Assembly (NCBI GenBank): GCA_903933935.1
Contig: CAIZMB010000127.1
Location: 1-41,700, forward strand
DNA: 41,700 nucleotides
Direction of reading: 5' to 3'
Origin: an uncultured Cytophagaceae bacterium
Lineage (GTDB): Bacteria > Bacteroidota > Bacteroidia > Cytophagales > Spirosomataceae
The translations under genes and the position numbers were made by a program. Position 1 is the stretch's first letter; every line of letters begins with the position of its first letter. Under the pieces are notes generated by a model that worked only from the letters and a program-made list of their open reading frames with translations, was not told where the DNA came from and made no database searches. This document shows positions 7,359 to 41,700 of this stretch, in pieces.

Positions 7359-8762
7359 TTATTTTTTGTATTGTTGGATCAATTTAAAGATCGCTTTTTG
7401 TGTTTCTAGGTTAGGGAAATATTCAAACATGATGATGTGTTGGTCATAGTCCAAGATAAGTCCCGATTCTAAAAAGTGAAATGCTTCTTTAAATTGGCCA
7501 GCTTTGATTAAGAAAATAGCGGATCGATAATAGAAATCGGCTTCTTCAGGTAATTCGTCAATCGCAGATAACATGATGTCAGCTGACTTTTCAAAATCTT
7601 CGAGGTCGTAGTGTAATTGGGCCCATTTAACCCAGGTAGGGGCAAAGAAGGAATCTAACTCAATGGACTTTTGATAAGCTTCATCTGCCGAAACGGTATT
7701 TCCTAAATAGGCCTCTACATCCGCTAACCCGGTCCAATACAATGGATTAGATTCGTTTAATTTGATCGCTTTTTTCAAAAAATGCAAGGATTCAAACCAT
7801 TTGTCCATCTCGGTTAAACAAACCGCTAATCCATAATATCCTTCGTCCCAAAGCGGATCAAGTTTTACCGCATCTTTATAATATGATAATGCAGCGTCAA
7901 ATTTCTTTTGTCTTTCTAAGCTTGCTCCTAAGCAGCAAAATAATTCGGGGTTAGGATCGTCACAAGTAAGGCATTGTGTGTAGGATTCTTCAGCTTTTAC
8001 GTAGTCTTTTAAGTTCATGTAGGTATTTCCTAAATTGAACAAAGATGAACCAAAAGTAGGTTCAATGGCTAAAGAATATTGGTAGGCGTCAATTGCCTTT
8101 TCAAATTGCTTGAGTTTAGAATAGGCGATGCCTAAATTATACCAAGCAGTATATGAGAAAGGATCTTGATCAATAAAGTTTTTATAAAACGGAATGCTCT
8201 CGTCTATTTTACCTATTTCATCAAGGGCGTTGGCTAATTCGACTAAGGCATTTTCATTTTCAGGGTTATATTCAAGGGATTTCTTGAACATGTCAACCGC
8301 CTCGCGGGGTTTGAACCAGGCCACGTAACTTAAACCTAATCTGAAGTACACTTCATCTTTTTCTTCGTACGCCTCCAGCGCTTCTAAAAATAGATTAACG
8401 GAAGCTTCATGTTGGCCCATTTGGCTCAATAAAGATCCTTTAACCAAAATGAGTTCGATATCTGTGGGAAACAATAGAATCGCATTTTCAATGATTTCCA
8501 TGGCATCTTCCGGTTTTTGAATTTCTCCTAAAACTTGTGCCTTTAAAATAATTAATTCGAGTGTATATGGAAAATGGGTAAGCCCTAAATCACATGCTTT
8601 TAAGGCTTCATCAAACTTGGATTGCATAAAATAATGATCCGCAATTTGCTCTAACGTGTCTATGTCGAAGAAAGAATCCTCCTGATTATTTAACATCTTT
8701 TCAAATCTTTGAACGGAAGAATTGATATCTTCTCTGTTTTCATCGAATTCGGGATCCAGCAT
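7359..8762 (-). CDS. Tetratricopeptide repeat protein
   Basis: A 467-residue protein made almost entirely of tandem TPR units of about 34 residues (for example AWYNLGIAYSKLKQFEKAID, then SSLFNLGNTYMNLKDYVKAE), starting near residue 40. There is no signal peptide or membrane segment, and the N-terminus is acidic, so it is probably a cytoplasmic scaffold. No enzymatic domain is seen. Similar all-TPR proteins are common in Bacteroidota and have no settled function. It is divergent from the Ppx/GppA gene with 106 bases between. A small hairpin (GTGGAT/ATCCAC, 7333-7350) lies just past its stop but has no T-tail, so I do not call it a terminator. Confidence 0.85.
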   Translation of the reverse strand: MLDPEFDENREDINSSVQRFEKMLNNQEDSFFDIDTLEQIADHYFMQSKFDEALKACDLGLTHFPYTLELIILKAQVLGEIQKPEDAMEIIENAILLFPTDIELILVKGSLLSQMGQHEASVNLFLEALEAYEEKDEVYFRLGLSYVAWFKPREAVDMFKKSLEYNPENENALVELANALDEIGKIDESIPFYKNFIDQDPFSYTAWYNLGIAYSKLKQFEKAIDAYQYSLAIEPTFGSSLFNLGNTYMNLKDYVKAEESYTQCLTCDDPNPELFCCLGASLERQKKFDAALSYYKDAVKLDPLWDEGYYGLAVCLTEMDKWFESLHFLKKAIKLNESNPLYWTGLADVEAYLGNTVSADEAYQKSIELDSFFAPTWVKWAQLHYDLEDFEKSADIMLSAIDELPEEADFYYRSAIFLIKAGQFKEAFHFLESGLILDYDQHIIMFEYFPNLETQKAIFKLIQQYKK

Positions 8763-8843
8763 AAAGTATTATTGGAGGTTAGACGAGATAATTTTTTACT
8801 AAATTAAAGCAATTATTTTTAATTTTTAAACAGTATTTCAACC

Positions 8844-14027: not shown

Positions 14028-14963
14028 ATGGAAAAAATACGTATTTACGCTCCTGCTACTGTGGCCAATGTGGCATGTGGATTTGATATTTTTGGTTTTG
14101 CAGTAAATAATCCTGGTGACGAAGTAGTCTTGGTTAAAAAGGATTCTCCTGGTATTGAAATAATCGAAATTACGGGTGATGAGGGCCGGTTGCCTAAGGA
14201 AGTTTCAAAAAATACGGCTGGCATAGCCATTCAAAAGTTCCTTGAATTTATCGGTAAGCCCGAACAAGGTTTTTCACTGTCTTTGCATAAAGATATGCCT
14301 TTGGGATCAGGTTTGGGTTCTTCTGCCGCATCTGCTGTGGCAGGAGTTTTTGCCGCAAATGAATTAATGGGGCGTCCTTTGGCACAAAAAGATTTACTTC
14401 CTTTTGCGATGGAGGGGGAACGAGTAGCCTGTGGATCAGCCCATGCAGACAATGTGGGGCCCAGTTTATTAGGGGGCTTTGTGATTATACGCAGTTATGA
14501 GCCCTTAGATATTATTCAAATACCTACGCCAAACGATTTATATGCTAGCATTGTTCACCCGCAGATTGAGGTGAATACAAAGGATGCAAGAGGTATTTTG
14601 AATAAAGAAATTTTCTTGTCGACCGCCATTACTCAGATGGGAAATGTAGCAGGTTTGGTCGCTGGTTTATTATTACCTGATTATGAGTTAATTGGTCGCT
14701 CTTTAGTAGATGTGATTATTGAACCCTCTCGTGCTATTTTAATTCCCGCTTTCAAAGAAGTGAAATTGGCAGCATTGCAGGCAGGCGCTTTAGGTTGCTC
14801 GATTTCAGGCTCTGGTCCGTCTTTATTTGCGCTTTCAAAAGGGGAGGAAGTGGCTCAAAAAGTAGCCGAAAACATGGCAGCAGAATTTGCCAAATTAGGT
14901 ATTGGCTCAGAAACGTATGTATCTCAAATTAATCAAGCAGGTCCTGTGATTCTTCCTAATTAA
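14028..14963 (+). CDS. thrB: ThrB, homoserine kinase
   Basis: Homoserine kinase phosphorylates homoserine for threonine synthase. It is 311 residues long, of the GHMP kinase superfamily. The ATP loop is PLGSGLGSSAASAVAG at about residue 90, the N-terminal APATVANVACGFDIFGFA is typical, and the third GHMP motif is GCSISGSGPSLFAL near residue 255. It starts 2 bases after thrA, so the two are one transcript. thrC, the usual third gene, is absent: the thrB stop shares bases with the stop of the convergent xerC gene. Confidence 0.96.
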   Translation: MEKIRIYAPATVANVACGFDIFGFAVNNPGDEVVLVKKDSPGIEIIEITGDEGRLPKEVSKNTAGIAIQKFLEFIGKPEQGFSLSLHKDMPLGSGLGSSAASAVAGVFAANELMGRPLAQKDLLPFAMEGERVACGSAHADNVGPSLLGGFVIIRSYEPLDIIQIPTPNDLYASIVHPQIEVNTKDARGILNKEIFLSTAITQMGNVAGLVAGLLLPDYELIGRSLVDVIIEPSRAILIPAFKEVKLAALQAGALGCSISGSGPSLFALSKGEEVAQKVAENMAAEFAKLGIGSETYVSQINQAGPVILPN

Positions 14964-15829
14964 GCTTTAGGATGTGCTTGTGAGTAAATTTCCTTGATTT
15001 TTTCCATTGAATTATGCGTGTATACTTGGGTTGCAGCTAAATTAGCGTGTCCCAATAGCTCTTTAATGGCGTTTAAATCTGCCCCACGGTTCAACAAATG
15101 TGTGGCATAGGTATGGCGTAAAATATGGGGTGATAGCTTTTCTAAGGTGCTTATGCGACTCAATTGTTTTTTGACGAGCCTCTGAACAAATACCGGATAA
15201 AGTGTTTCTCCCTTGTCGGTTAGCAATAAATTTTCATGTGTATGAGGACAGGCTTTCAAGTAATTTTCAATTAGGACCTCAATGAGTTTTGGGATGGGAA
15301 TGATTCGCTCTTTATTTCTTTTTCCGTTGACTCGGATCTTCCCTGATTGTAAATTAATCTGTACTCGTTTTAAGGAAATTAATTCTGCCAACCGGATTCC
15401 CGTTCCATAAAGCAAGTACAAAATCAACTGATCGCGCAAATCTTCAAACGAGTTTATGTCAATGGGGGCATTAAACAAAGGTTCTATTTCAGATTCTCGA
15501 AGAAATTGCGGTAATTTTTTCTTTGTTTTAATCATTTTTATCGTGGTCATCGGGTTGTCTTTTCGGTCACCCCGACGTAATAAAAATTTAAAAAAAGTTC
15601 TTAAAGTCGCTAATTTACGATTGATGCTACGGTTTTGAATGGTATCATCAGATAATTGTATGAGCCAACTTCTAATTAAATCCGATCTGATTTCTGTAAT
15701 GTCAACCTCAATTCCGATAAATGCAAGAAATTGCTTGAGGTCATTTTCATACGCAGTGACCGTATGAATGCTTAGTCTTCTTTCTACTTTGAGATGTACC
15801 AAAAAAAAATTGACTAACTCTCGATTCAT
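14960..15829 (-). CDS. Tyrosine recombinase XerC/XerD family
   Basis: A 289-residue site-specific recombinase, the normal size of chromosomal XerC/XerD proteins that resolve chromosome dimers at dif. The N-terminal SAM-like core-binding domain is about 1-85 and the catalytic domain about 105-285. The full catalytic set is visible: R146 (GTGIRLAEL), K170 (VNGKRNKER), H235 and R238 (HILRHTYATHLL), H261 (LLGHANL) and Y270 (TQVYTHNS). It lies 39 bases downstream of rpsU on the same strand, a pairing found in many Bacteroidota, which suggests a housekeeping enzyme and not a mobile-element integrase. XerC cannot be told from XerD here. Confidence 0.92.
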   Translation of the reverse strand: MNRELVNFFLVHLKVERRLSIHTVTAYENDLKQFLAFIGIEVDITEIRSDLIRSWLIQLSDDTIQNRSINRKLATLRTFFKFLLRRGDRKDNPMTTIKMIKTKKKLPQFLRESEIEPLFNAPIDINSFEDLRDQLILYLLYGTGIRLAELISLKRVQINLQSGKIRVNGKRNKERIIPIPKLIEVLIENYLKACPHTHENLLLTDKGETLYPVFVQRLVKKQLSRISTLEKLSPHILRHTYATHLLNRGADLNAIKELLGHANLAATQVYTHNSMEKIKEIYSQAHPKA

Positions 15830-18303: not shown

Positions 18304-18330
18304 ACCTCTAAACCTATTTAACTATGAAAA
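18304..18330 (+). repeat. 27-nt leader repeat, copy 1
   Basis: ACCTCTAAACCTATTTAACT followed by ATGAAAA, identical to the copy at 18422-18448. It directly follows the metG terminator. The ATG opens a small ORF of 25 codons (18324-18401, starting MKIYTNIAILW and rich in lysine), with no recognised homology. Confidence 0.9.
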
Positions 18331-18464: not shown

Positions 18465-18929
18465 TTAGAAAATGACAACTGTATCTGGTTGTGTCTCTGG
18501 CAAATTGTTTGCCGAAACTTCAATACTTTTTTCTTCTTCTACTACAGCCCAAACGACATTAATTGCATTGGCTGCTCTGCCTATTTCTTTTATCCAAGTT
18601 AACGTGCTGACATCTGAAATATTATCTACTTGAGAAATAATAGTTTTGATCGTTGCATTAAAAATGGCTTTTTCTTCTTTTGTTACTTTAAGATAATTTT
18701 GATTATTTTTTTGATAATCCTCTAATATTGAAATAGTTAGGCTCGCTGACGAAGTCTTTGTTCCTGAATTTTCTTTTAATATTAATGTTTGAATTACTTC
18801 TGAAAGAGTTTCCCTCTTTGATGACACGATGGCATTTGCACCTTTTCCTGTCAAACCGCTTGCTTGTACTGTTGGGTTGATGAATCCTAAACCTAGTAGG
18901 ACGCTAATCACTGTTATTTTACTATTCAT
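18465..18929 (-). CDS. Small exported protein of unknown function
   Basis: A 154-residue protein I do not recognise. The N-terminus MNSKITVISVLLGLGFINPTVQASG looks like a cleavable Sec signal peptide with cleavage near AxA-like VQAS. The mature part (about 130 residues) is polar, probably largely helical, without cysteines or repeats. It is rich in Ser, Thr, Glu and Lys, and ends in a hydrophobic VVIF. It is flanked by about 250 bases of AT-rich DNA upstream and the leader-repeat region downstream, so it appears monocistronic. The coding call rests on the full-length frame and the credible signal peptide; no function is proposed. Confidence 0.6.
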   Translation of the reverse strand: MNSKITVISVLLGLGFINPTVQASGLTGKGANAIVSSKRETLSEVIQTLILKENSGTKTSSASLTISILEDYQKNNQNYLKVTKEEKAIFNATIKTIISQVDNISDVSTLTWIKEIGRAANAINVVWAVVEEEKSIEVSANNLPETQPDTVVIF

Positions 18930-33864: not shown

Positions 33865-35760
33865 GGCCTTTAATAATACGGCAGAAAGGGGAGGAAGGTT
33901 GATCGAAATGGAGAATGCTTTTCCTTGCCAATTGATTTCTTCGGTCATGACGGCGCCCGAAATTGGATAATCGCTACCCCCGTAAATTCCTTGATCTGAA
34001 TTGAAAATTACTTTCCAAACTCCGGGTAGAGGCACTCCAATTCGATAGTTTTCTCTTGGAATAGGCGTTAGGTTAAGGATGGCGATGATTTGTTGCTTTG
34101 CTGTATCTCCCTTTCTTAAAAAACTGATGACGGTATTTGCTTGATCATTTCCTTCGATCCATTCAAAGCCGTCATTGTCAAATTGTTTTCTGTGTAAAGC
34201 GGGTTCTTCTTTGTACAGTTTATTAAGTGCTTTAACGGTATTTTGAATGCCTTGATGTGCGGGTAACTCGCTTAAATGCCAATCGATACTTTGATCGTGA
34301 TTCCACTCATTGATTTGCCCAAATTCACCCCCTTGGAAGATTAATTTCGTGCCAGGGTGCATAAATTGTTCGCTGAAAAGCAAACGAAGATTGGCCAATT
34401 TTTGCCAATCATCTCCTGGCATTTTTTGCAGCAAAGCCCCTTTTCCATAGACTACTTCATCGTGAGAAAGGGGAAGGCAAAAGTTTTCGGCAAAAGCATA
34501 TATCAATGAAAATGTTAATTCATTTAGGTGGTGTTGGCGATAAATGGGGTCTTTTTGGAAAAACCGAAGGGAATCATTCATCCAACCCATCATCCATTTT
34601 TGGCTAAATCCTAGGCCTCCATGGTGCACGGGTTTGGTGACTCCAGGATAGCTGGTGGATTCTTCGGCAATCATTTGGATGTCGGGAAATTCAGCAAATA
34701 AATGCGAGTTAAGATCTTGTAAAAATGAGATGGAATCTAGGTTATGGTTTCCTCCGAGGGCATTAGGTTCCCATTCACCTTCATTTCGAGAATAATCTAA
34801 GTAGAGCATGGAGGCCACTGCATCTACGCGAAGGCCATCGATGTGGTAACGATCAAGCCAAAAAGCGGCATTGGAAAGTAAAAAGCTTCGAACTTCATTT
34901 TTTCCGTAATCGAAAATATAGGATTTCCAGTCGGGATGATAGCCCTTTTTAGGATCAGCATGTTCGAATAAACAGGTTCCGTCAAAATTATGAAGGCCAT
35001 GGTCATCCCCCGGAAAGTGGGAGGGAACCCAATCTAAAATGACCCCTATATTAGCCTCATGTAGCTTTTCGACTAAATTCATAAAGGCTTGTGGATCTCC
35101 AAATCTAGCGGAAGGCGCAAAATAACCGGTAATTTGGTAGCCCCAAGATGGCGCGTAGGGATGTTCCATGATGGGCATAAATTCCACATGGGTGAAGCCC
35201 ATTTCTTTCACATAGGCCACTAGCTTATGGCTGATGTCCTCATAAGACAGGTATTGATTGTCCAATGTTTTCTGCCAAGAGCCTAAATGTACTTCATAAA
35301 TGGACATGGGTGATTGCAGGCTGTTGTAAGTTGGCCTATTCTTCATCCAAGACTGGTCATTCCATTCTTTATACGTATTCCAAACGATACTAGCCGTTTT
35401 GGGAGGTGTTTCACAATAAAGACCAAAGGGGTCAAGTTTTTCTAGATATTCCCCTGATTTTGTTTTTATCCCAAATTTATAGGTTTCTCCTGTGTGTACG
35501 TGGGGAATAAACCCTTCCCAGATTCCGGAGGAGTCCCAACGAGGAAATAGGGTATGTGATTCTTTATCCCAAACATTAAAGTTGCCCAGCACATGCACCG
35601 ATTGCGCATTAGGTGCCCAAACGGCGAAAAATGTTCCTTTTACGCCCCCATGTATGATTTCAAAAGCCCCTAATTTTTCGTAAAGCCTTGAGTGCTTGCC
35701 GTGTAGAAAAAGGGAAATATCGAAATCACTAAGAAGGGAATGGGGAAGAACTTGGGACAT
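33862..35760 (-). CDS. glgB: 1,4-alpha-glucan branching enzyme
   Basis: GlgB makes the alpha-1,6 branches of glycogen. The 632-residue GH13 protein has an N-terminal CBM48-type domain (about 28-110, including TFFAVWAPNAQSVHVLGNFN), the catalytic barrel with the nucleophile region DGLRVDAVASMLYLDYSR, the acid/base region MIAEESTSYPGV and the SHDEVVYGKGALL motif. An all-beta C-terminal domain ends the protein. It lacks the extra N-terminal module of E. coli GlgB, so this is the shorter form. No other glg genes are seen; it stands alone between the terminator and tRNA-Glu. Confidence 0.96.
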   Translation of the reverse strand: MSQVLPHSLLSDFDISLFLHGKHSRLYEKLGAFEIIHGGVKGTFFAVWAPNAQSVHVLGNFNVWDKESHTLFPRWDSSGIWEGFIPHVHTGETYKFGIKTKSGEYLEKLDPFGLYCETPPKTASIVWNTYKEWNDQSWMKNRPTYNSLQSPMSIYEVHLGSWQKTLDNQYLSYEDISHKLVAYVKEMGFTHVEFMPIMEHPYAPSWGYQITGYFAPSARFGDPQAFMNLVEKLHEANIGVILDWVPSHFPGDDHGLHNFDGTCLFEHADPKKGYHPDWKSYIFDYGKNEVRSFLLSNAAFWLDRYHIDGLRVDAVASMLYLDYSRNEGEWEPNALGGNHNLDSISFLQDLNSHLFAEFPDIQMIAEESTSYPGVTKPVHHGGLGFSQKWMMGWMNDSLRFFQKDPIYRQHHLNELTFSLIYAFAENFCLPLSHDEVVYGKGALLQKMPGDDWQKLANLRLLFSEQFMHPGTKLIFQGGEFGQINEWNHDQSIDWHLSELPAHQGIQNTVKALNKLYKEEPALHRKQFDNDGFEWIEGNDQANTVISFLRKGDTAKQQIIAILNLTPIPRENYRIGVPLPGVWKVIFNSDQGIYGGSDYPISGAVMTEEINWQGKAFSISINLPPLSAVLLKA

Positions 35761-35837
35761 AAAGGCTTCTAAATCAATTGTTAGGCTAAAATAGCGAAAT
35801 TAAATTAGATTTATTATGTATTTATTTTAAAGTACTA

Positions 35838-35869
35838 TTTTGAATCTTTAGCAAAAACTTCTACCTTTG
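35838..35869 (+). promoter_or_regulatory. tRNA-Glu promoter, perfect Bacteroidota consensus
   Basis: TTTTG (35838-35842), a 19-base spacer and TACCTTTG (35862-35869) match the TTTG-N19-TAnnTTTG consensus exactly. The -7 box ends 19 bases before the mature tRNA start. Confidence 0.8.
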
Positions 35870-35888
35870 TGCCACCAAATTCAGATTT

Positions 35889-35963
35889 GGTCCGTTCGTC
35901 TAGGGGTTAGGACACGTCCCTTTCACGGATGAAACACGGGTTCGATTCCCGTACGGACTACCA
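35889..35963 (+). tRNA. tRNA-Glu (anticodon TTC)
   Basis: A full cloverleaf. The acceptor GGTCCGT pairs with ACGGACT (35953-35959). The anticodon stem is CGTCC/GGATG, with loop CTTTCAC carrying anticodon TTC at 35922-35924. The T-arm is ACGGG/CCCGT with loop TTCGATT. The discriminator A is followed by an encoded CCA (35961-35963). It has its own promoter, and the terminator hairpin begins on the very next base. Its 3' flank is duplicated at 41649-41697, so it is the likely insertion site of the island that follows. Confidence 0.96.
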
Positions 35964-35997
35964 GAAACCACTCAGGGCGAGTGGTTTCTTTTATTTT
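35964..35997 (+). terminator. tRNA-Glu terminator hairpin
   Basis: A perfect 10-bp inverted repeat GAAACCACTC/GAGTGGTTTC with loop AGGGC and a TTTTATTTT tail starts right after the CCA. An identical hairpin is at 41649-41682. Confidence 0.92.
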
Positions 35998-36012
35998 ACG
36001 GGGGTGGTAGCA
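35964..36012 (+). repeat. Left 49-nt direct repeat (attL-like)
   Basis: 49 bases starting at the tRNA terminator match 41649-41697 with a single difference (G at 36003 versus A). The last bases, GGTAGCA (36006-36012), are repeated after 12 bases (36018-36024). The position at a tRNA 3' end and the distant second copy are what integrase attachment sites look like. Confidence 0.8.
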
Positions 36013-36226
36013 AAACAGGTAGCACGAGAGGGGTTTTCGGGTGAAATTTAACTTTGTTTAAATTTAAACGAAGTCAAGAATCACTCCCTAAGAAATAACC
36101 TCTATCGGTCCACTTTTTGCTGACGATTTACAGTCTAAACCTTGGTTTCCTAATTCGAATTTTTCATGAAGCTAAATTTGCAAAGCAGATTCCCTTTTAG
36201 GAGAATGTTCAATGAGGTGTTAAGAA
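36013..36226. other. Intergenic region inside the island's left end
   Basis: About 214 bases without a credible gene. It holds the second GGTAGCA (36018-36024) next to the left repeat. The rest shows no tRNA-like fold, clear promoter or strong terminator. It is the 3' flank of the AraC gene. Confidence 0.5.
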
Positions 36227-37138
36227 TTAATTCAATGATCTAAACTCATTAGGCGTCTGTCCCACGCGTTGCTTGAACAAGCGCGTGAAATGCTGTGGGT
36301 ATTTAAAGCCCATCTGAAAGGCAATTTCATTGATAGTTTTATCGGAATCGAAAATGCGGTTTTTTGCCACGTCGATGGTCTTGTTTTGGATATAATCTTT
36401 GGCGGTTAATCCTGTTTCTTTTTTAATCAAATCGCCAAAATAATTCGCCGATAAATGTAACTCATTCGCGAAATAACCCACGGATGGAATGCCGTTCACT
36501 TGGGCTTGATCGGATTCAAAATACTGATTCATTAGAGTTTCAAAGCGCTCCAAAATACCCTTGTTGACATGCTCTCGAGTAATGAATTGACGGTCATAGA
36601 ATCGTTGGCAATAACCTAAAAATAATTCGATATTAGAAACAATCAACTTCTTCGAATGCTTGTCGATAGGCTGCTTTAGTTCAAAGGCGATTTTAGCAAA
36701 AGAATCTAGGATCATTTGGCGTTCATCATCCGATAAATGCAGTCCTTCATGAGATGCGTAATGGAAGAATTTAAATTGAGCAATTAGTCGGCCTAGGTTG
36801 GTCCCAATTAATAAATCAGGATGGAAAGCCAAACCATGTCCCATCGGTTGGTAAGGAACTTTTGGATTATCTATTTCGACGATTTGTCCCGGGGCGAAGA
36901 AAACTAGCGTTCCTGCTTGGTAATCATATGCATGTCGACCGTATTTCAGGTCGCCGCATTTCACATCCTTTAGAATGATACTAAAAAGGCCATATTGAAA
37001 GCGAATCGTATCCGCATCGCCCCATTCGCGGATGTTCGCTTTGGAAAAATCGATTACTGTCACTAAAGGATTTAGTGTTTTGTGATTATTGTCTGCATTG
37101 TATTGATCAATGTTTTTAACAGGGTAATTCAGCTCCAT
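36227..37138 (-). CDS. AraC family transcriptional regulator
   Basis: A 303-residue regulator. An N-terminal cupin-like sensor region (about 25-165) is followed by a C-terminal double helix-turn-helix. The first is around GYFANELHLSANYFGDLIKKETG and the second around TINEIAFQMGFKYPQHFTRLFKQRVGQTPNEFR, the AraC signature. It is divergent from the NTF2-like genes across 148 bases, so it probably controls them and perhaps the hydroxylase. The effector is unknown. Its G+C is higher than that of chromosomal neighbours, like the hydroxylase genes. Confidence 0.92.
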   Translation of the reverse strand: MELNYPVKNIDQYNADNNHKTLNPLVTVIDFSKANIREWGDADTIRFQYGLFSIILKDVKCGDLKYGRHAYDYQAGTLVFFAPGQIVEIDNPKVPYQPMGHGLAFHPDLLIGTNLGRLIAQFKFFHYASHEGLHLSDDERQMILDSFAKIAFELKQPIDKHSKKLIVSNIELFLGYCQRFYDRQFITREHVNKGILERFETLMNQYFESDQAQVNGIPSVGYFANELHLSANYFGDLIKKETGLTAKDYIQNKTIDVAKNRIFDSDKTINEIAFQMGFKYPQHFTRLFKQRVGQTPNEFRSLN

Positions 37139-37156
37139 AAAACGATTTTAAGCAAA

Positions 37157-37164
37157 CAAATTTA
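37157..37164 (-). promoter_or_regulatory. -7 box for the AraC gene
   Basis: The minus strand reads TAAATTTG, a match to TAnnTTTG, 18 bases before the AraC start codon. No convincing -33 box is seen. Confidence 0.4.
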
Positions 37165-37286
37165 CCAATTATCTGATTCGGCCATACTTAAATGATTTTG
37201 AAACCGTAAAAATGGTAGAAAAAACCGGAATTTATCTATTTAGTTAGGCGCACTAAGTGTGAAATTTGTAGCTTAAACAAAAACCT

Positions 37287-37736
37287 ATGAAATCAATCGT
37301 ATTATTTTTAAGCTTTTTGCTCCTAACCATTTCCGGCGCATGGGCGCAGACTCATACAGAAGAAACCATCAAGCAATTATCGAAAGATAAGTGGCAATGG
37401 ATGGCCAACAAAAACGCGGATAAATTAGAAGTGTTATTCAATGAAAAATGTGAGTTTGTCCATATGGGTGGAACCTGGGGGAAAGCGCGCGAAGTGGACA
37501 TCATCAAAGCCGGATTTATTTGGTACAAACAAGCTGAAGTCTATTCTACCAATATCAAATTCTACGGAAATACTGCCATCCTTTTAAGCGACATCGATTT
37601 AGTCGCACAAGTAGGAGGAAATGTCGTGACGAATCCCTTTATGGTTACCGAAGTGTATGTTTTGGAAAACAATACCTGGAAAATGGCCCAGTTAACGTTC
37701 TCACATTTGTCTCGTCAAGTTAAATTAAAACAATAG
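37287..37736 (+). CDS. Exported NTF2-like (SnoaL/DUF4440) protein, copy 1
   Basis: A 149-residue protein with a signal peptide (MKSIVLFLSFLLLTISGAWA, cleaved before Q) and a mature NTF2-like domain of about 125 residues. The motif FVHMGGTWGKAREVDIIKAG and the C-terminal VTEVYVLENNTWKMAQLTFS fit the DUF4440/SnoaL group. Such small alpha+beta barrels bind small hydrophobic molecules, and some are isomerases, cyclases or hydrolases; no catalytic set is obvious here. It is the first gene after the AraC promoter region. A close paralogue follows 5 bases later. Confidence 0.85.
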   Translation: MKSIVLFLSFLLLTISGAWAQTHTEETIKQLSKDKWQWMANKNADKLEVLFNEKCEFVHMGGTWGKAREVDIIKAGFIWYKQAEVYSTNIKFYGNTAILLSDIDLVAQVGGNVVTNPFMVTEVYVLENNTWKMAQLTFSHLSRQVKLKQ

Positions 37737-37741
37737 ATCCC

Positions 37742-38191
37742 ATGAAAAAAGCACTTTTAATTTTGAGCATCTCGCTCATGACGATTTCAGGCGTTTTTGC
37801 GCAAACAAACACAGAAAAGGAGTTGATTCAGTTGTCGATGGACAAATGGCAATGGATGTCCGACAAAGATGTGAACAAACTTGACAAATTGTTCGATTCT
37901 AAAGCCAAATTCGTTCACATGAGCGGGACGTGGAAGAAGGACGAAGAGTTAGACATCATCAAAACGGGACGCATTTGGTACAAGAAAGCGACGGTGAAAG
38001 ATACGGCGGTAGAAATTTCGGGAAATACGTCTATCGTTTGGAATCGTATCACCTTGGATGCCGTTGTTCGGGAACAAATAGCGGTTACTGAATTCACGGT
38101 TACAGAGGTTTATCAAAAACAAGGCAAGGATTGGAAGTTGCTTGCATTGACCTTCAGCAGCGTGCGTGATACCCACCAAATCAAGCATTAA
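37742..38191 (+). CDS. Exported NTF2-like (SnoaL/DUF4440) protein, copy 2
   Basis: A 149-residue tandem paralogue of the preceding gene, of identical length. It has its own signal peptide (MKKALLILSISLMTISGVFA) and aligns along its whole length without large gaps (DKWQWMSDKD versus DKWQWMANKN; FVHMSGTW versus FVHMGGTW; DIIKTGRIWYKKA versus DIIKAGFIWYKQA). The charged residues between these blocks differ. The pair is probably an old duplication with some divergence, and perhaps forms a heterodimer in the periplasm. The function is unknown. Confidence 0.85.
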   Translation: MKKALLILSISLMTISGVFAQTNTEKELIQLSMDKWQWMSDKDVNKLDKLFDSKAKFVHMSGTWKKDEELDIIKTGRIWYKKATVKDTAVEISGNTSIVWNRITLDAVVREQIAVTEFTVTEVYQKQGKDWKLLALTFSSVRDTHQIKH

Positions 38192-38231
38192 TCTTGTTTC
38201 AAAATTATAACGATTGAATGTATTGATTCCC

Positions 38232-38239
38232 TATATTTG
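38232..38239 (+). promoter_or_regulatory. -7 box upstream of the hydroxylase genes
   Basis: TATATTTG matches TAnnTTTG and lies 27 bases before the ATG at 38267. It suggests that the hydroxylase genes have a promoter apart from that of the NTF2-like pair. Confidence 0.45.
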
Positions 38240-38266
38240 CTTTGATTCTTTTAAATTACCTATTCT

Positions 38267-38728
38267 ATGATCAAGAAATATTCCGTTCGCATTAATAAGA
38301 AAGTCCACCAAGTAGAGGCGGACGAAAACATGCCCCTTTTGTGGGTGCTCCGAGATATTCTTGGCATGGAAGGTACTAAATACGGTTGTGGCGTGGGCTC
38401 TTGCGGAGCGTGCACGGTGCATTTAAATGGAAATGCAGTTCGCTCTTGCCAATTGCCGATTTCGTCCTTAACTGGGATGGAAATTACAACGATCGAAGGC
38501 TTATCTGCCAAAGGTGACCATCCTGTTCAAAAGGCGTGGTTGGACGTTGATGTCGCTCAATGCGGCTACTGTCAATCAGGCCAAATCATGAGCGCCGCCG
38601 CACTCTTGAAAAGCACACCGAATCCGACGGAAGAGGAAATTGAGAATTTCATGACCGGCAATATTTGTCGGTGTGGAACCTATACCCGTATTAAAAAAGC
38701 CATCCAACTAGCCGCTTTGAAATCATGA
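38267..38728 (+). CDS. (2Fe-2S)-binding subunit of a molybdenum hydroxylase (IorA-type)
   Basis: A 153-residue small subunit that passes electrons from the molybdenum site. The plant-type ferredoxin domain holds the first cluster with C41, C46, C49 and C61 (YGCGVGSCGACTV and RSCQLP). The helical domain holds the second with C99, C102, C134 and C136 (QCGYCQSGQ and ICRCGTY). All eight cysteines are present. There is no signal peptide of its own. It overlaps the large subunit by 4 bases (ATGA). This two-gene form without an FAD subunit is typical of isoquinoline 1-oxidoreductase and related aldehyde dehydrogenases. Confidence 0.93.
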   Translation: MIKKYSVRINKKVHQVEADENMPLLWVLRDILGMEGTKYGCGVGSCGACTVHLNGNAVRSCQLPISSLTGMEITTIEGLSAKGDHPVQKAWLDVDVAQCGYCQSGQIMSAAALLKSTPNPTEEEIENFMTGNICRCGTYTRIKKAIQLAALKS

Positions 38729-40965
38729 AAAAGACAGACTCAAATTACAGCAGACGCTCGTTCTTGAAAGTAACATCGCTCTCTGGAGGAGGCATGATGC
38801 TGGGTATTTCTTGGTTCGCAAGTGCGAAACCGGAAGACAGTTTAGCGGAATTAAATATCGAACCGGTATGGCAAGAGGTGACTAGTTTCATCAAAATTGC
38901 GTCAGATAATTCGATCAAAATATTCTCTCCTAATCCAGAGTTTGGCCAAAATGTGATGACCTCTTTACCGATGTTAATCGCAGAGGAATTAGACGTGGAT
39001 TGGAAGCAAGTGGAAGTGGAACAAGGTAATTACGACCCAAAAGCTTTCCCGCGCCAATTCACCGGAGGTAGCCAAGGTATTCGCATGGCTTGGAAGCAAT
39101 TGCGGACAGTAGGTTCAGCAGCGCGTCAGATGATTTTGACGGCGGCCAGCCAGGCATGGAATTTGCCAGTAACAGAATTGACCACCGCTAACGGAATGGT
39201 CACGCATGCGTTCAGTGGTAAGTCTGAAACCTACGGCACTTTTGCCACGGCAGCTGCGAAATTACCCGTGCCCAAAGACATCGTCTTGAAAGGAAATCAA
39301 TCGTTCCGCTTAATCGGTACCCCACAAAAGAATGTAGTAGCACCCAAAATTGCACAAGGAAAACCCTTGTTCGGGATGGACTACCGCGAGGCGGGGATGT
39401 TAATTGCGATGACCGAACGTCCCCCGGCTTTTGGTATGCGACTGAAATCGTTCGATGCAACCGCAGCGAAGAAGATGCCGGGAATCGTGGATATTTTCCC
39501 GATCCAAGTGTTTAAAGACGATCATAAATTTGCCGGTTTTGATACGCGTTCGTTCAACGAGGTGATTGCCGTCTTGGGCAAGTCTACTTGGGATGTGATG
39601 AATGCGCGCAAGAAAATCAAAGCCGTTTGGGAAGTAGCGCCAGAAAGAAAAGAGATGGGTGTGAATAACCGTGAAACAACGGTTCCTTCAGGCTTAGAAA
39701 GTACGACGAAACATTACGCCCAAATGCTTGAAATGAGCAAAAAGCCGGGTGTCATCGAGCGAAAAGATGGAGATCCAGAGAAGGCATTTGCGGATGCGAA
39801 ACACGTGATTGAGCGGACTTATACCGCACCTTTTTTAGCTCATAATATCATGGAACCGACGAACACGTTTGCACATTATGTGGGCGATAAAGTTCGTTTC
39901 GTTGCGCCTATCCAAATACCAGATTGGATTATGCCATCGATCGTGGCTCGTTTAGGTATCCCAAAAGAAAATATATCGATTGAATTAGTGCGGATGGGCG
40001 GCGGTTTTGGTCGTCGTGCTTATGGCCATTACATGATCGAGGCGGCCTTGATTTCTAAGCAAGCGAATGCACCAGTTAAATTAATTTACTCGCGCGAGGA
40101 TGATGTGAGTGCTGGTATTTACCGACCGTCATATCAGTTGACCTACCGCGCAGCTTTCGATGAAAACAAGAAATTGATTGCCTTTCATGCCAAAGGTGGA
40201 GGTGTTCCTGAATCCCCTTTACATGCGAATCGTTTTCCGGCAGGAGCGATTGACAATTACCTAGCGGAGAGTTTTGTGATTCCATCGAACATTACGATTG
40301 GCGCTTTCCGTGCTCCTCGTTCGAATTTTAATGCAGCGGCAGAACAGTCGTTCTTGGATGAGATTTCAGAATACATGAGCAAGGACCCGATTGCGTTTCG
40401 TTTGGAATTATTGCAGCGGGCCAAAGATAATCCGGTAGGCAAAACCAACGATTACGACGCGAGCCGCTACATGGGCGTGTTAGAATTAGTTCGGGAAAAA
40501 TCGGGCTGGGGAAAACTGGAGAATGCAGGTAAAAAGCGCGGAGTTTCGGCGTATTTCTGCCACAATTCCTATGCGGCTCAGGTCATCGATTTACAGGTGA
40601 AAGGCGATCAAGTTACGGTCGAACTAGTAACTACTGCCCTAGATTGCGGCGTAGTTGTGAATCCAGAGGGAGCTAAAAACATGGCTGAAGGTGCGGCGAT
40701 TGATGGGATTGGAAATGCCTTGTTTGGTCAGTTGACGTTAACGGATGGCAAGACGGATCAACGCAATTTCGACACCTATCGGATGATTCGCCATAATGAG
40801 GCACCGAAGAAAATCGATGTGCATTTTGTGAAAAATGAAATAGATCCTACAGGTTTAGGGGAGCCACCTTTCCCTCCGATTTTTGGGGCGATGGCAAATG
40901 CATTGTATCAGGCGACGGGGAAGCGTTTTTACCAACAGCCTTTTCAGCCACAATTAAAAGGGTAG
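38725..40965 (+). CDS. Molybdopterin-binding large subunit, xanthine dehydrogenase family (IorB-type)
   Basis: A 746-residue catalytic subunit of the aldehyde oxidase/xanthine dehydrogenase family. A twin-arginine signal (SRRSFLKV, R10-R11, then a hydrophobic stretch) points to folded export to the periplasm. Molybdenum cofactor-binding segments are seen in RMGGGFGRRAYG and GAFRAPRSNFNAAAEQ. The C-terminal GLGEPPFPPIFGA holds the catalytic glutamate (E713). Family members hydroxylate N-heterocycles or oxidise aldehydes; the substrate is not predictable. No cytochrome subunit or XdhC-type maturation factor is next to it. The gene is G+C-rich compared with the rest of the window. The cupin gene starts 7 bases after its stop. 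Confidence 0.93.
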   Translation: MKKTDSNYSRRSFLKVTSLSGGGMMLGISWFASAKPEDSLAELNIEPVWQEVTSFIKIASDNSIKIFSPNPEFGQNVMTSLPMLIAEELDVDWKQVEVEQGNYDPKAFPRQFTGGSQGIRMAWKQLRTVGSAARQMILTAASQAWNLPVTELTTANGMVTHAFSGKSETYGTFATAAAKLPVPKDIVLKGNQSFRLIGTPQKNVVAPKIAQGKPLFGMDYREAGMLIAMTERPPAFGMRLKSFDATAAKKMPGIVDIFPIQVFKDDHKFAGFDTRSFNEVIAVLGKSTWDVMNARKKIKAVWEVAPERKEMGVNNRETTVPSGLESTTKHYAQMLEMSKKPGVIERKDGDPEKAFADAKHVIERTYTAPFLAHNIMEPTNTFAHYVGDKVRFVAPIQIPDWIMPSIVARLGIPKENISIELVRMGGGFGRRAYGHYMIEAALISKQANAPVKLIYSREDDVSAGIYRPSYQLTYRAAFDENKKLIAFHAKGGGVPESPLHANRFPAGAIDNYLAESFVIPSNITIGAFRAPRSNFNAAAEQSFLDEISEYMSKDPIAFRLELLQRAKDNPVGKTNDYDASRYMGVLELVREKSGWGKLENAGKKRGVSAYFCHNSYAAQVIDLQVKGDQVTVELVTTALDCGVVVNPEGAKNMAEGAAIDGIGNALFGQLTLTDGKTDQRNFDTYRMIRHNEAPKKIDVHFVKNEIDPTGLGEPPFPPIFGAMANALYQATGKRFYQQPFQPQLKG

Positions 40966-40972
40966 ATGATAA

Positions 40973-41434
40973 ATGAAAAATGTCGTTGTTATTATTCATT
41001 TGATGATTTCAATTTTAGTTTCATTTCAAACTACCGCTCAAAGCTCAGAAAAACCTTTGCAAGGTAATTGGACAAAAGGTCCTTCTGAAAGGTTCTTTGG
41101 CGATGTTTGGGTAGAATATTTCATTAACGATTCGGAAAGTGACTTCCTTGCTTCTAGGGTTTTATTTGAACCTAAAGCTCGAAGCAATTGGCATAAACAT
41201 ACGGGCAAACAAATCATTTTTGGAGTGGATGGAGAAGGTTATTTTAAAGAAAAGGGTAAGCCAATGATTCAACTAAAAAAGGGGGATTTAGTAGAAATTC
41301 TTCCTGGTGTCATTCATTCTCATGGTTCTATAAATAAACAGTTTATTCAAGGTGTCATGATGAATGGTGTTTCGAAAAAAGAATCTACTGTGTGGATGAA
41401 TCCTGTTTTAGAGGAAGAGTTGTACGAAAAGTAA
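40973..41434 (+). CDS. Exported cupin-domain protein
   Basis: A 153-residue protein with a signal peptide (MKNVVVIIHLMISILVSFQTTAQ) and one cupin barrel. The first cupin motif is SNWHKHTGKQIIFGVDGEGYF (H74, H76, Q80), and the second is LKKGDLVEILPGVIHSHGS (H115, H117). These residues would bind one metal ion. The sequence is reminiscent of small cupins related to the (R)-mandelonitrile lyase group, but the activity is uncertain. It lies 7 bases after the hydroxylase large subunit and is likely co-transcribed, though its base composition is clearly AT-richer. Confidence 0.85.
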   Translation: MKNVVVIIHLMISILVSFQTTAQSSEKPLQGNWTKGPSERFFGDVWVEYFINDSESDFLASRVLFEPKARSNWHKHTGKQIIFGVDGEGYFKEKGKPMIQLKKGDLVEILPGVIHSHGSINKQFIQGVMMNGVSKKESTVWMNPVLEEELYEK

Positions 41435-41557
41435 TGGTTGCAACATTACACCTAGTAAGGGAGGTAGATTTAAAATTAGGTCAATTTGACGTAAAATATT
41501 TGTGTGCAAAAAGGTGAGCAAGTACGTGTGATTTTAACATATTAGGAATTGATTAAG

Positions 41558-41695
41558 ATGTCAAAAAGTAATTATAGTTTAATTTGGAATGGTTTTGATT
41601 CGAATAGGATAGGTTATGAAATGATTCCATTCTACCGTACGGTAACTGGAAACCACTCAGGGCGAGTGGTTTCTTTTATTTTACGGGAGTGGTAG
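41558..41695 (+). pseudogene. Short ORF running through the right repeat, possibly a truncated gene
   Basis: An ATG at 41558 opens 45 codons beginning MSKSNYSLIWNGFDSNRIGY. The last about 15 codons are encoded by the 49-nt repeat (NHSGRVVSFILREW), and the stop is in the repeat. The first 30 residues resemble nothing I recognise. It may be the start of a gene cut off by insertion, or not a gene. Confidence 0.25.
41649..41682 (+). terminator. Second copy of the tRNA-Glu terminator hairpin
   Basis: The same perfect 10-bp stem (GAAACCACTC/GAGTGGTTTC, loop AGGGC, TTTTATTTT tail) as at 35964-35997. No tRNA precedes it. It would also terminate the cupin message. Confidence 0.8.
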
Positions 41696-41697
41696 CA
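41649..41697 (+). repeat. Right 49-nt direct repeat (attR-like)
   Basis: 48 of 49 bases match 35964-36012. Just upstream, CGTACGG (41636-41642) and GATTCC also occur in the 3' end of the tRNA-Glu gene, but spacing differs and no cloverleaf can be drawn. This may be a decayed remnant of the tRNA end. Confidence 0.8.
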
Positions 41698-41700
41698 GGA

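Follow-up and report, generated by a model that had tools for sequence, protein, structure and literature searches.

What kind of element lies behind the tRNA-Glu gene of the window (the whole stretch of 41,700 nucleotides analysed here, which is the entire contig C127), and how could it have been moved? The 49-nt sequence that follows the tRNA was confirmed to be repeated with one mismatch, the copies being located at 35964-36012 and 41649-41697, and the contig ends 3 nt beyond the second copy. The longest exact direct repeat in the window is 39 nt long and lies within this sequence. The repeat is far beyond chance, as an exact 20-mer repeat was found in 0 of 200 shuffles of 35501-41700 (two-base blocks). 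Direct repeats that are exact over 25 nt or more were also noticed at 18304 and 18422, beside the ORF at 18465-18929. We estimate a probability of about 75% that the stretch behind the tRNA is one cassette in a tandem array of the kind that site-specific recombination extends behind tRNA genes. The parts of the unit are the following.

35889..35963, plus strand: tRNA-Glu(TTC), the attachment gene (tRNA call)
35949..35956, no strand assigned: CCGTACGG core in the 3' part of the tRNA, the putative region of strand exchange
35964..36078, plus strand: conserved left end of the unit
35964..35988, plus strand: unit-borne terminator-like hairpin (fold, -15.5 kcal/mol) with a stem of 10 bp and a T-rich tract behind it
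36006..36024, plus strand: two GGTAGCA direct repeats (36006-36012 and 36018-36024), 12 nt apart and conserved in cassette left ends
36227..37138, minus strand: AraC-family regulator, 303 aa
37287..37736, plus strand: DUF4440/SnoaL-like protein, 149 aa, matched directly to DUF4440
37742..38191, plus strand: second 149-aa protein (ORF), whose start looks similar
38267..38728, plus strand: 2Fe-2S subunit of a molybdenum hydroxylase, 153 aa
38725..40965, plus strand: molybdopterin-binding subunit (xanthine/aldehyde dehydrogenase-like), 746 aa
40973..41434, plus strand: cupin protein, 153 aa
41435..41642, plus strand: right end of the unit, finishing in CCGTACGG (41635-41642)
41649..41697, plus strand: second 49-nt copy, which would be the left end of the next unit (probably C112, by an inferred join)

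Two DUF4440 members, listed without names, were counted among the 76 scanned cassette proteins, and the product of 37742..38191 is probably the other one. The sequence-only reading had placed the start of the identity at the hairpin and not in the tRNA. This has to be revised, since the tRNA 3' octamer CCGTACGG recurs at 41635-41642 and ends six bases before the second copy, with degradation confined to the bases between. At the far end of this unit the 3' part of the tRNA is repeated directly as CCGTACGG, with the remainder degraded. The same reading had given the DNA between the copies a different base composition, which was observed for the average (42.1% GC in 36013-41648 against 37.8% in 1-35888) and does not extend over the whole unit. 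The value is raised because the two molybdenum-hydroxylase genes are at 47% GC, whereas the AraC/SnoaL part is at 38.8%, like core genes (mean 38.3%).

An empty site with a single copy of the repeat had been predicted for a related genome, and we found one on G014:C151, where the order is tRNA-Glu, one repeat copy and then DNA matching C112. When the window genome's own flanks are joined near the core, they match G014 at 95.0% over 1029 nt, whereas the occupied allele matches over its first 324 nt only. The window cassette is precisely present or absent between genomes, and the G014 state could be a loss instead of the ancestral state. The last 52 bases of C127 form the start of reverse C112; this overlap of contig ends, together with the G014 allele, suggests that C112 follows the window. 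In both G017 and G014, the tRNA-Glu flanks are 97-98% identical to those of the window and the DNA directly behind the repeat of the tRNA is different.

The conserved flank beside tRNA-Glu is a 632-aa gene, presumably glgB-like, which as a query was matched in 35 of 38 genus genomes (E<=1e-5), some of these matches arising only through other loci. The tRNA-Glu was readable at 29 of the 30 loci compared. Thirteen of them read ...GGACTAC-TTCGGTAG with no encoded CCA, eight carry CCA with the hairpin of the window, and eight have other or truncated sequence. At the eight occupied loci the tRNA is complete with CCA, its 3' end being restored on insertion; the tRNA is a conserved target at which cassettes are present or absent between strains. 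The CCA end of the tRNA-Glu in the window would have come with the inserted unit. In G006 and G023 (L174 and L181, among the 13 loci without CCA), the stem of the native tRNA-Glu terminator was noticed to be nearly that of the unit hairpin. The unit hairpin may be a captured native terminator.

The repeat was sought in the genus, a group of freshwater bacteria, and beyond it. A DNA search with the repeat and its downstream sequence found it in 24 of 59 relatives, all 24 within the genus, and in none of 22 genomes of other genera; these repeats are 76-97% identical to the copy in the window. A covariance model, built partly from sequences that are counted in the same census, gave 151 matches at E<=0.01 in the 38 genus genomes, 28 of which have at least one match. 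Up to 18 matches occur per genome, with about 15 in the window's own genome, and 47 of the 67 listed repeat sequences were included in alignment A1. Under stricter filters, 35 other genera of the family were sampled and one of them had a match to the repeat. The sole match outside the genus among 200 family genomes is G403:C46:8124-8238. In another locus (L155, G010:C5), a repeat near 8682-8792 lies about 250 nt downstream of tRNA-Arg(ACG) and has an unusual upstream end in common with a copy in L106.

We mapped 123 matches on 75 contig segments. Only 20 of these are directly behind a tRNA, 13 behind tRNA-Val and 7 behind tRNA-Glu, so that the repeat is not the generic terminator behind many tRNA genes that had been named as a possible refutation. 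The arrays are often head-to-tail and some start at tRNA-Val or tRNA-Glu. For example, G007, which is a single contig, has four same-strand matches within 30 kb downstream of tRNA-Val that delimit units of 1.7, 27.2 and 0.7 kb. Most of the genomes are draft MAGs. Closed units, which have same-orientation repeats on both sides, number 46 and range from 261 to 27205 nt with a median of 2742 nt; 38 of them are 1-11 kb long. One to three genes of at least 110 aa are present in 33 of the 46 and one to seven in 42, with none in three. Genes in the cassettes, which can hold several, were observed in the same orientation in 71 cases and in the opposite one in 58. A PF00589 match lies inside one closed unit, the other 45 having none.

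Gene order changes at the repeats. For array genes, a neighbour is kept in 200 of 286 comparisons within units, in 4 of 41 across a repeat present in both genomes and in 0 of 72 across a repeat present in one. With flanking core genes included, the counts are 662 of 925 within units, 6 of 128 and 0 of 93, respectively. The ORFs behind these counts were called by a simple longest-first procedure with a minimum of 110 aa, and any that had more than 40 nt in common with a repeat were removed; the counts cover the fetched segments, and the comparisons are not independent. G010 has the whole cargo of the window (96.6% over 5.5 kb), lying between other units, and G009 and G027 have parts of it at contig ends. 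The rightmost 669 nt (40973-41641), a stretch in which the right end of the unit lies, match G009 and G010 at 99.6% and G027 at 99.0%. The unit that follows the cargo differs among G010, G009 and G027, and in the window's own genome as well if C112 is joined as suggested. A tandem duplication around a junction was also noticed on G009:C50 (L258), where gene clusters 58, 59 and 119 occur on both sides of a single repeat.

Some cassettes are more similar between genomes than the core is. The core flanks of G009 and G010 are 89.0% identical and their shared units reach 99.8% and 98.3%; for G000 and G010 the core is at 90.0% and units reach 98.0% and 96.5%. In other pairs the array DNA is not above the core (G000-G014, core 94.4% and units 88.7%; G000-G001, core 87.0% and units 86.1%). 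Since some units lie far above core identity and others do not, these identities indicate both recent and old transfers. The commonest Pfam families in the 76 cassette protein families include TonB-receptor, SusD-like uptake proteins, peptidase M14, phosphoesterase, Fic and DUF7133, as judged from one representative per family with the 27-kb unit left out and from the 25 Pfam families seen most often, out of 74. PADLOC matches in the cassettes are few and are mostly to SoFic or candidate PDC models. Among the families listed, none is of the capsid or relaxase kind.

The position of the break was approached through pairs of junctions, 24 of which share the upstream side and differ downstream and 15 of which do the reverse. 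Among Glu-type pairs, the best resolved lose identity at CCGTACGG or directly behind it, upstream of the hairpin; between G027 and both G009 and G010, for example, the match runs out at the tRNA core. In a Val-type pair, made up of tRNA-Val in G000 and a cassette end in G027, the sequences are the same from about TGGGACCACC onward. In other pairs identity continues through the hairpin, which hides their break point. Several junctions have their start within the hairpin's 3' arm, and some junctions lack a tRNA remnant. The suggestion that recombination is aimed at the hairpin was not borne out, as CCA and hairpin recur behind internal units and not behind the tRNA alone; therefore, the two move along with the left ends of units. 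The hairpin is not likely to be the recombination target, though the junctions that start inside it leave some room for this.

The right end is common to part of the units and is not universal, and Glu-type right ends are largely different. A model made from 21 cassette right ends scored above 10 bits at 40 of 95 non-tRNA junctions and at 19 of the 74 junctions outside the training set, with no match at all at 37 of the 95. Near the junction end, CCGTACG was found in 12 of 95 junctions and the Val-type GGACC/GGGxxC pattern in 39 of 95. With the model of cassette right ends, the corresponding end of the 27-kb integrase unit of G007 reaches 29.9 bits, and none of 1900 shuffles exceeded 10. In addition, a pair like the GGTAGCA repeats is present in the left ends of integrase elements, as GGTTACA in the Glu type and GTAGC in G007. 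This likeness suggests that the paired repeats are candidate arm-type integrase sites.

Relatives encode a tyrosine recombinase of 418-436 aa, with PF00589 and PF13102 in the two proteins scanned. R268, K291, H366, R369, H392 and Y401, which we take to be the catalytic residues (R, K, HxxR, H, Y), are invariant in eight sequences. An ORF of 92-98 aa precedes the recombinase in six loci; HTH_17 was matched in the two scanned, and one of these two proteins matches an excisionase PHROG. The recombinase adjoins a repeat at tRNA-Glu in G030 and G034 and at tRNA-Val in G012, is one cassette away from tRNA-Val in G007 and G030, and is three genes away in G033; in G032 no repeat was found near it. Six of 38 genomes have strong matches (>600 bits); repeats are present in all six, and in five of them the recombinase is near such repeats. 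Members or relatives of the family were also seen beside tRNA-Lys (G030:C11) and about 3 kb from tRNA-Asp (G018:C24), and further tRNAs may also serve as targets of the family. For relatives from outside the genus (L293-L295), the short loci examined show no tRNA. The 27-kb integrase unit of G007 (G007:C1, about 697.7-724.9 kb; L150/L140) was noticed to carry SspA-, SspC- and SspD-like genes and a DNA methylase with ParB-like matches. A phage origin was considered and rejected, as the repeat pattern has no exact match in viral_contigs and the integrase profile found one distant relative among 398 candidate stretches, at 28% identity over residues 268-403.

As the sequence-only reading had stated, no integrase lies within the repeats of the window, where no PF00589 match was found; the unit does not encode an integrase of its own. 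In the whole of its genome only two PF00589 matches occur at E<=0.001, on C94 and at 15002-15505 of the window. The latter falls in a 289-aa XerC-like tyrosine recombinase (14960-15829, minus strand; 302.8 bits, below the curated cut-off of 335.15), which is probably a housekeeping enzyme. Host XerCD was considered as a candidate for the recombinase that moves the units. Mobilisation in trans, one of the two options offered earlier, is the best reading because no cognate integrase was found in this genome. The seven genomes with at least nine repeat copies, this one included, all lack a strong recombinase match, and G010 has one distant match of 54.7 bits. With six integrase genomes among 38, this absence has a P of 0.27 by chance, and therefore it neither supports nor excludes action in trans.

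Degraded 3' ends of integrase genes were observed immediately behind the Glu-type repeat on C112 (79% over 73 nt, E 6e-12) and G014:C151 (78% over 73 nt, E 2e-10) and are a sign of former integrase units. Earlier blastn alignments on C112, C6 and G014:C151 had taken in the repeat, and these values come from coding DNA alone; the candidate remnant on C6 was lost once the repeat was left out. A reversed control gave nothing below E 0.4, and tblastn on the same three contigs gave no remnant at E<=1e-3.

A mechanism can be proposed for the observed arrays with their conserved left ends, the empty site, the same cassette in different contexts and the cassettes above core identity. In a complete unit, the left end would comprise CCA, terminator hairpin, T-rich tract and the two GGTAGCA copies, and the right end would close with a copy of the 3' part of the tRNA. 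A new unit inserted at this part of the tRNA gene would come to lie next to the tRNA and restore both the acceptor end and the terminator. The older unit would be pushed outward, which would give the junction order of right end, tRNA-3' remnant and left end; we infer this direction of array growth. The tyrosine recombinase of about 430 aa and its adjacent HTH protein, supplied by the rarer units, would act in trans on the recombinase-free cassettes.

Homologous recombination between the repeats of about 100 nt could instead be shuffling the units at present, in which case the arrays would be the remains of former integration. This is consistent with the lack of a cognate integrase in the window's own genome, with the degraded integrase ends on C112 and G014:C151, with repeats that are 76-97% identical to the window's copy and with the many junctions at which a clean right end is missing. 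Against it stand the loss of identity at the tRNA core in the clearest pairs (G027 against G009 and G010) and the precise presence or absence of the cassette, and we consider it unlikely. An ordinary island of one lineage, in which a single old insertion at tRNA-Glu was followed by decay of the integrase and otherwise vertical inheritance, is very improbable. Such an island fits with the remnant of an integrase on C112, which probably adjoins the unit of the window, yet the reshuffled contexts already contradict it: the neighbours of the cargo differ in G010, G009 and G027, and G017 and G014 differ from the window directly behind the repeat of the tRNA.

We give hardly any credence to a dispersed generic tRNA terminator that is unlinked to mobility. 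Unit contents change at the repeat, the conserved sequence reaches well past the hairpin, and the 20 of 123 mapped matches that follow a tRNA involve two kinds only; these outweigh the many copies per genome, the strong terminator-like hairpin and the similar stem in the native terminators of G006 and G023, all of which speak for it.

The cassette array formed by site-specific recombination is the reading we retain, and from it a wider proposal can be drawn for which we regard the odds as about even. Here the genus would have an integron-like system, unrelated to integrons, in which cassettes without mobility genes carry att-type ends only, one of which gives the tRNA its CCA and terminator. 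They would be moved in trans by a tRNA-targeting integrase of the rarer helper units and would form a pool of uptake and catabolic genes across freshwater species. If mobilisation in trans is true, small metabolic gene sets without mobility genes could travel from one species to another by way of a shared tRNA site. Searches based on integrases would then miss such cassettes, and short-read assemblies would miss them too because several contigs end at repeats, for example C127 and C112.

Several known systems resemble these arrays. Integrative mobilizable elements (IMEs) and phage satellites at tRNA genes have in common with them the integration at a tRNA 3' end, a tyrosine integrase and an excisionase-like partner. 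The cassettes differ in having no recombinase, and the families listed include no capsid or relaxase. The likeness to integrons lies in an array of small interchangeable cassettes, a junction site for each cassette and a recombinase that would here act in trans. In integrons, attI is the counterpart of the tRNA 3' end that serves as target. In our arrays the tRNA 3' end takes the place of attI and the cassettes hold several genes in both orientations. The integron integrase (IntI) model TIGR02249 gave no match at E<=0.001 for three integrases, and judged by these sequences the arrays are not an integron.

Tycheposons, compared by their description in the passages drawn on, likewise have a tRNA border, a tyrosine recombinase and nutrient-related cargo (PMC10872708). 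Here, border and recombinase occur together in the integrase-bearing elements at tRNA-Val and tRNA-Glu and not in the window unit; in contrast to tycheposons, 38 of the 46 closed units are 1-11 kb, the units are head-to-tail and 45 of 46 are without PF00589. On the published passages considered, the arrays belong to a known kind, the additive island at a tRNA, as exemplified by Alteromonas fGI1, 'Ca. Actinomarinales' fGI1 and 'Ca. Methylopumilus' fGI-2, with which they have in common a tRNA that is the target for successive cassettes, partial tRNA repeats at the ends and variable content (PMC4119200, PMC7771536, PMC10872708). Those passages describe repeats of tRNA fragments only, whereas long conserved left ends with CCA and terminator are present here, together with an integrase-bearing unit with related ends, the use of two tRNAs and reshuffling that has been counted. 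No earlier description of such arrays was found in the open-access literature, most subscription journals lying outside the search. As far as this search reaches, the counted modularity, the ends in common with an integrase unit and the carried CCA and terminator seem to be new. The additive-island accounts describe cassette arrays and are, in the passages considered, silent on what moves a cassette; cassette ends that are comparable with the ends of integrase units in the same genus provide a concrete candidate pair of helper and substrate.
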